Positions 40,844-42,444 of a DNA stretch of 64,000 nt are shown here, one piece after another. Position 1 is the first letter of the stretch. Each line of letters starts with the position of its first letter. The translations under genes were made by a program, and so were the position numbers. This DNA is from Wielerella bovis. GTDB lineage: Bacteria; Pseudomonadota; Gammaproteobacteria; Burkholderiales; Neisseriaceae. A model generated the notes under the pieces. That model searched no databases and had not been told where the DNA came from. It was given only the letters and a program-made list of their open reading frames with translations. The stretch is taken from NCBI RefSeq assembly GCF_022354465.1, contig NZ_CP092361.1, forward strand, positions 1,054,001 through 1,118,000. The letters are read 5' to 3'.

Positions 40844-41354
40844 TATTCAGGCAGCCTGAAAAAATAAATTGATAATGTTAATTCGGTTAATCAAAATAGA
40901 GGTGATTTATTCTCTTTTATTTTATCAGCATTCTTGTGAGGTGGGAGTGGCTTGGATTTTTTTAATTTGATAAAATTTTAATGAAAATAAATAGTTATAA
41001 ATAAAAATGTCAGATGTAAATATCCAGTCTATCTATGTTTAGTTACGCAGGAATATACAATTTATTCTATAATGGTGTGGTAATTTTATCTCTTCAGGCT
41101 GCATATATCATATAAATGCAGCCTGAAACTATTTTTTTCAACAAGTTGCGTATATAATCACTACATGGAATATATAGTGAATGGCAGTTGTTTAAAATAA
41201 AAATAATACAGCGTTGCCAGTTTCCTTGTGTACTTATTTGTATACGACTATATATTGACCAAAATAGAGTTAGTTTGTCTTGATTTTAATCGAAATTTGA
41301 TTCACTATATCTTTAAATCACATCTAAAATATATGCAGAAAGACGGTACATATT
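40844..41354. other. AT-rich intergenic region before the HTH-UbiX fusion gene
   Basis: A 511-bp stretch without a convincing gene. It contains an uptake-sequence pair (about 41094-41130) and a heavily decayed Correia-like remnant at 41173-41309. The promoter of the fusion gene is expected near the right end. Confidence 0.5.
41173..41309. repeat. Decayed Correia-like element, copy F
   Basis: It begins TATAGTGAATGG and ends TGATTCACTATA. Inside it keeps AATAATACAGCGTTGCCAG, TGTGTACTTATTTGTATACG and a stray ACGACTATATA, the end of a second copy. It may be a collapsed nested pair. Confidence 0.5.
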
Positions 41355-42233
41355 ATGAAAACATTACATCAAATTCGCTTTGAAAATTTTGAAACACTCA
41401 TCAAAGAGGCAGGTAGCGTGGCAGAATTGGCGCGTCAATGTGGTTATAATAAACCTGCGTATTTTTACCAAGTGCGTAGCCAAACCATTAAACCCAATGG
41501 CAAACCTTTGCAATTAGGAAAACGCATTTGTGCCAATTTGGAACGTGGTATGGGTAAACCTTTTGGCTGGATGGATGTGGACCATAGTTCAACTGCAGGT
41601 TTACCTGCGCTAACAGGCAAATTAAAAGAAAGCAATGGCACAATTACTTTAGCATTGACAGGTGCATCTGGCGCATTGTATGGCATGCGGTTATTGGAAT
41701 GTTTATTGTCGGCAGGTAAAACCGTTTATGTATTGATTTCGGCAGCGGCGCGTACGGTTGCCAAACAAGAATTGCAACTGGATTTGCCTGAAAGTGCCAA
41801 AGCTACACAAAATGTTCTGTGCACGCGTTTTGCAGTGAAACCTGCACAACTGCGCGTATTTGCCAACGATGATTGGTTTGCTCCTATTGCATCTGGCAAT
41901 GGTTCGGCAGATGCAATGGTTATTTGTCCTGCCAGCATGGGAACGGTTGCTGCGCTTGCACACGGTACTTCCGATAGTTTGATGGAACGTGCGGCAGACG
42001 TTATGATTAAAGAACGTCGTCCTGTGGTGATTGTGCCGCGTGAAGCTCCTTTGTCTACCATTCATTTGGAAAATTTGTTGAAATTGTCGCAAGTGGGTTG
42101 CACCATTTTGCCACCTGCCGCTGGTTTCTATCACAATCCACAAACAGTTGATGATATGGTGGATTTTGTGGTTGCCAAGATTTTGGACCAACTGCATATT
42201 ACGCATTCACTCGTACCTAAATGGGGGCAGTAA
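41355..42233 (+). CDS. ubiX: HTH-domain / UbiX-type flavin prenyltransferase fusion
   Basis: One 292-residue frame joins two domains. Residues 1 to about 80 look like a Cro/CI helix-turn-helix domain of the phage-repressor type: FETLIKEAGSVAELARQCGY, a basic PAYFYQVRSQTIKP, then LGKRICANLERGMGKPFGWM. From about residue 95 the protein is a complete UbiX: ITLALTGASGALYGMRLLEC, then GSADAMVICPASMGTVAALA, then PVVIVPREAPLSTIHLENLL. UbiX attaches dimethylallyl to FMN to make the prenylated cofactor of UbiD decarboxylases in ubiquinone synthesis. The ATG at 41355 is the only good start and lies in the HTH part. ubiD is not nearby. Fusion with a DNA-binding domain is unusual. Confidence 0.88.
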   Translation: MKTLHQIRFENFETLIKEAGSVAELARQCGYNKPAYFYQVRSQTIKPNGKPLQLGKRICANLERGMGKPFGWMDVDHSSTAGLPALTGKLKESNGTITLALTGASGALYGMRLLECLLSAGKTVYVLISAAARTVAKQELQLDLPESAKATQNVLCTRFAVKPAQLRVFANDDWFAPIASGNGSADAMVICPASMGTVAALAHGTSDSLMERAADVMIKERRPVVIVPREAPLSTIHLENLLKLSQVGCTILPPAAGFYHNPQTVDDMVDFVVAKILDQLHITHSLVPKWGQ

Positions 42234-42311: not shown

Positions 42312-42444
42312 TATATATCAAAATAATTTGATAAATTTATTTATATAATTCCGAGTATATTACTCGGGTATGTCTCAAATTAGGCAGCCTGAAAAATATT
42401 TTTCAGGCTGCCTATTATATTTTTTGATAGTAAAAGGGAAAATC

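Follow-up and report, generated by a model that had tools for sequence, protein, structure and literature searches.

The gene at positions 41355–42233 of the window (the whole stretch of DNA analysed, 64,000 nucleotides, C1:1054001–1118000 of the closed 2.29-Mb genome G000; G+C content of the window, 42%) raises two questions: whether a UbiX enzyme preceded by a repressor-type helix-turn-helix (HTH) domain is a real product, and what that domain would do there. Members of the UbiX family convert FMN and DMAP to prFMN for an enzyme of the UbiD family, the usual client of UbiX. As the earlier note had claimed, the HTH and UbiX parts share a single uninterrupted plus-strand frame of 292 amino acids, which runs from ATG to TAA with no internal stops and has the following layout.

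41337–41346, plus strand: weak Shine-Dalgarno-like AGAAAGACGG ahead of the ATG, found by eye from the sequence.
41355–41585, plus strand: HTH domain of lambda-repressor-type fold, residues 1–77 (PHROG 12107, AlphaFold, fold match, and dN/dS).
41586–41642, plus strand: linker, residues 78–96, predicted to be disordered, variable in length and sequence (pLDDT, identity with indels).
41643–42230, plus strand: UbiX flavin prenyltransferase, residues 97–292 (TIGR00421, gapless alignment to 3zqu).

The extension of about 95 residues described in the earlier note is real, and its make-up is corrected to 77 residues of HTH and about 19 of linker. A survey of UbiX N-termini in Neisseriaceae found the fusion in six genomes of four genera, whereas UbiX of most relatives was unfused and of normal length. 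The latter would fit a misread start or a sequencing error, in which residue 90 or thereabouts would be the true start of the enzyme, with the HTH left untranslated or belonging to another gene. However, no ATG, GTG, or TTG codon occurs between residues 75 and 101 of the fused frame, so a normal-length UbiX cannot start near its usual position; a short UbiX from an internal start is ruled out by the lack of these codons at residues 76–100. A frame error between the domains is likewise ruled out by the same two-domain frame in five other genomes, and purifying selection spans the HTH. In these five relatives, an AGG/AAGG-type Shine-Dalgarno sequence was seen by eye directly before the HTH start codon. 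We regard a misread start as highly improbable; the fusion is real and selected, and the long product is the only plausible one.

The N-terminal part led to PHROG 12107 and the C-terminal part to TIGR00421. The TIGR00421 match covered residues 97–290 (E 3e-56; 190 bits against a cut-off of 109), the NF004685 match scored 192 bits against a cut-off of 188, and Pfam Flavoprotein matched residues 96–280. Residues 96–292 aligned without gaps with Pseudomonas aeruginosa UbiX (PDB 3zqu; also 4zaf), which lacks the HTH and linker that together add about 96 residues to the N-terminus of the window protein. Among the residues that we take to be catalytic or substrate-binding in the P. aeruginosa enzyme (S15, E49, R122, K129, R139, E140, Y169, R185, and W200), the equivalents of all but R185 are kept in the fused UbiX, and R185 is replaced conservatively by K275. 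The UbiX is therefore complete, as the earlier note had proposed, and activity is favoured by the catalytic residues that it retains.

Searches of the N-terminal part with Pfam and NCBIfam gave only sub-threshold HTH matches. With the domain alone as the query, residues 1–87 matched PHROG 12107 ("transcriptional repressor") with E 6e-14, bearing out the phage-repressor-like HTH recognised at the outset. The helices lie at residues 4–19, 22–28, 35–41, and 56–65, and AlphaFold predicted a four-helix HTH (pLDDT 93) followed by a linker predicted to be disordered (pLDDT <50 over residues 80–93). The best solved fold match was the Salmonella-phage repressor 5d50 (Z 11.3, rmsd 1.4 over 71 residues), with P22 c2, 434, and similar repressors next and well below it. 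The domain profile retrieved S24 repressors in Snodgrassella and many Gammaproteobacteria, a separate match led to an S24 protein of Neisseria gonorrhoeae, and the HTH of the window protein is 43–46% identical to Neisseriaceae S24 repressors. The domain and the N-terminus of S24/LexA-type prophage repressors (PHROG 12107, the gonococcal and Snodgrassella S24 proteins, and Rep 5d50) are homologues with the same predicted lambda-type fold. Matches that would speak for a phage origin were only weak (30–33% identity). In contrast to these repressors, which carry a Peptidase_S24 C-terminal domain, the window protein lacks the S24 autoprotease/dimerisation half (Pfam) and has an enzyme in its place. 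Outside Neisseriaceae, the readable frames among HTH matches in 399 genomes of the order, classified at plus-strand loci, were S24 or short HTH proteins, with no further enzyme fusions.

The recognition helix, SYLSQVR in the consensus of S24 repressors, reads AYLYQVR or AYFYQVR in the UbiX fusions and TYFYQIR in G006. Q39 is invariant across the UbiX-fused HTHs, and the charge of the domain is net positive (12–15 K+R versus 6–9 D+E). By tblastn against 61 related genomes, the two-domain frame was found in G007 and G016 (Conchiformibius) of one genus and in G010 and G019 (Alysiella crassa DSM 2578) of a second; in G006, the fused gene is cut at a contig end, and its HTH and UbiX parts were read separately. 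Each of the six fused genomes has only one HTH match. Pairwise identity among the fusions was 47–91% for the HTH, 16–50% with indels for the linker, and 68–84% for UbiX. Many dS values were saturated for both domains; where dS was finite, dN/dS of the HTH was 0.07–0.22 with one outlier of 0.37 (G019–G006), and that of UbiX was 0.09–0.22. These values indicate that purifying selection acts on the HTH as it does on the enzyme, with the linker drifting. Together with the kept recognition helix, this selection argues that the HTH of the UbiX fusion is still functional.

The gene upstream of the fused gene is presumably low-molecular-weight phosphatase-like, and downstream we take a terminator, a PCu(A)C-like gene, and an ApbC-like gene to follow.

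42381–42414, plus strand: stem of paired DNA uptake sequences (AGGCAGCCTGAA) with a T-rich tail, a likely terminator.

The PCu(A)C-like neighbour is common to G006 and the ApbC-like neighbour to G010. The downstream neighbour of the fused ubiX in G019 is the same as that beside the unfused ubiX in G018, G002, and G021, which suggests that the HTH was joined to ubiX at its ancestral locus.

The same kind of domain occurs on a second enzyme. An HTH-HisB (imidazoleglycerol-phosphate dehydratase) fusion was found in six Neisseria genomes in the first survey, and additionally in N. gonorrhoeae; twelve HTH-HisB protein sequences, whose species may partly overlap with the six genomes, were also compared. 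At L131:2917–3897, L081, L116, and other Neisseria loci, HisB carries the sister HTH as an N-terminal extension. In a survey of 83 genomes of the family, the domain was present in 43 of the 46 Neisseria genomes, mostly in frames of 300–357 amino acids, part of which were read to the end. In the six UbiX-fused genomes, HisB lies in open frames of 198–224 amino acids and is thus unfused, and the two fusions did not co-occur among the genomes checked. The layout of HTH, variable linker, and highly oligomeric enzyme is common to both, whereas the enzyme and the pathway differ. In a tree of 49 HTH domains, the UbiX-fused (98/91) and HisB-fused (100/98) domains each formed one group, and the two together were separate from the S24 domains (93/82). 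This evidence is moderate because the tree is midpoint-rooted and based on 78 columns; to that degree, it supports the HisB-fused HTHs of Neisseria as the closest relatives of the UbiX-fused HTH. The HisB-fused HTH is less conserved than its enzyme (mean identity 62% versus 88%), and some species show drift in its recognition helix, such as K in place of Q39 in N. gonorrhoeae. Two N. gonorrhoeae records of chromosome size (2.17 Mb), L130 (NZ_CP119140.1) and L131 (NZ_CP119142.1), are filed as plasmids, and L130 contains two adjoining genes resembling S24-type repressors.

Judging from sequence and predicted structure, the window protein is most likely a bifunctional enzyme and putative DNA-binding protein. 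An intact flavin prenyltransferase would display, through a flexible linker, an HTH of the kind found in S24/LexA-type prophage repressors. UbiX is a dodecamer according to the titles of UbiX structure entries, so that as many as twelve HTH domains could sit on one assembly, and oligomerisation of the enzyme would make up for the C-terminal dimerisation (S24) half that the repressor lost. A sister clade of the HTH on HisB is as expected if an enzyme can take over this role. The target of the protein would be a specific operator, most likely in the promoter of its own gene or of another, and binding may respond, as in a trigger enzyme, to whether flavin or substrate is bound or to how the enzyme is assembled. 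We give an even chance to this combination of active flavin prenyltransferase and flexibly linked repressor HTH that binds a specific operator, perhaps modulated by the state of the enzyme. Conservation of the fusion, selection on the HTH, the kept recognition helix, the confidently predicted fold, the net positive charge of the domain, and a UbiX that is kept in the window genome although no UbiD was found there favour such a regulator. The lack of any operator that the six upstream regions share beyond chance disfavours it.

Fusions of this layout are known. The window protein, with a DNA-binding-type domain linked to an enzyme domain, has the layout of BzdR and of trigger enzymes. BzdR of Azoarcus combines an XRE-type HTH with a shikimate-kinase-like domain that senses benzoyl-CoA and has lost catalysis, and regulation was also obtained when the active enzyme was used in a synthetic fusion (PMC3602430). 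The two proteins share a repressor-type HTH, a linker, and an enzyme-derived domain, whereas the UbiX domain keeps its catalytic residues and BzdR is catalytically dead. BzdR is the closest tested precedent for a regulator, and HppE-type enzymes for a structural role of the HTH.

Such a structural role is the main rival: the HTH would have lost DNA binding and been repurposed for oligomer packing, as an active-site lid, or for docking of a partner, like the XRE-type HTH of HppE and its relatives. Enzymes with a fused HTH fold have precedents, since chains of the HppE epoxidase and of HEPD and MPnS (XRE-type HTH plus cupin enzyme) appeared among the fold matches of the HTH. The drift of the recognition helix in some HisB-fused HTHs and the failure to find a shared operator upstream of the six fused genes point the same way, and conservation of the HTH in the fusion could have structural reasons. 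However, an HppE-type fusion is packed and has no long disordered linker, whereas the window fusion has a different enzyme and a linker that is long, variable, and predicted to be disordered. The UbiX fusions also keep the recognition-helix consensus, and the unfused UbiX of close relatives works without the domain. We consider a purely structural HTH doubtful, with a smaller but appreciable chance.

The region upstream of the fused gene contains one candidate operator.

41158–41181, no strand: inverted repeat TCACTA-N11-TAGTGA, a candidate operator only, found by eye in AT-rich DNA and possibly a chance occurrence.

Additionally, ATATAGTGAA (41172–41181) recurs inverted as TTCACTATAT at 41301–41310. 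The inverted repeat is not common to the relatives. Neither inspection by eye for inverted repeats nor a dyad search gave a convincing conserved operator upstream of the six fused genes; the best half-sites, TTTAT, TTATAT, and TTTATAT, were equalled in 21, 3, and 8 of 40 Markov-shuffled controls, respectively, in a search of low power that spanned several genera with one genome per species. The window-specific repeat would suit a protein whose DNA binding serves mere localisation of the enzyme (nucleoid tethering) or autorepression only, with no metabolite sensing. This would have the same anatomy, and allosteric coupling of the two domains is less assured across a flexible linker; by sequence, it is indistinguishable from a ligand-responsive version, and the repeat on which it draws is not kept in relatives. 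We consider it improbable.

The earlier note had tied the fusion to ubiquinone cofactor supply. The same HTH lineage is on HisB in Neisseria, so the logic of the fusion is not specific to ubiquinone, and cofactor supply itself may not apply. The window genome has UbiX, UbiA, and UbiG. UbiD was not found there by the family model (E up to 0.001), by the Pfam model or tblastn with Alysiella UbiD (E up to 10), or around the DUF1176-like gene that adjoins ubiD in Alysiella; this copy of UbiX may thus not serve ubiquinone cofactor supply. UbiD was present in G006, G007, G010, and G019. A divergent UbiD was rejected for the part of the window genome open to search, where no match appeared even at E up to 10. 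In G003, another member of Neisseriaceae, UbiA and UbiG were present, and neither UbiD nor a true UbiX match was found. Ubiquinone makers do not always conserve UbiD, and UbiN of Rhodobacter capsulatus can substitute for it aerobically (PMC10626278). Retention of an intact UbiX is therefore unexplained and not proof of a new role. Loss of UbiD alone shows no regulatory role either, because another prFMN user could retain UbiX. A UbiX fusion with no detectable UbiD raises the question of what UbiX is kept for.

HTH-enzyme fusions as such are already known; the UbiX version is real, conserved, and without description in the open-access papers searched, where we found none of an HTH-HisB fusion either. 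If DNA binding holds, it would rank as a regulator based on a flavin prenyltransferase, of which we could find no earlier case, and sister lineages would carry one DNA-binding module on different enzymes, UbiX and HisB. The comparisons suggest that linking metabolic enzymes to DNA in this manner may be a recurrent strategy that has gone unnoticed. A more far-reaching scenario, which we rate as unlikely, is that the HTH was domesticated once in Neisseriaceae as a portable module, placed on UbiX (Alysiella/Conchiformibius branch) and HisB (Neisseria), with each enzyme providing both the oligomeric scaffold and the metabolic sensing for one shared regulatory function, and that this role outlived UbiD in the window genome. 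The unexplained domain on HisB is directly testable in well-studied organisms, as N. gonorrhoeae and the majority of the Neisseria genomes examined have it.

Across the 64 kb of the window, two 12-base uptake sequences also occur in a total of 131 exact copies (98 of AGGCAGCCTGAA and 33 of AGGCTGCCTGAA); both sequences are enriched in Alysiella, Simonsiella muelleri, and Kingella oralis (PMC10715097). Some copies are paired as terminator-like stems, e.g., that at 42381–42414.
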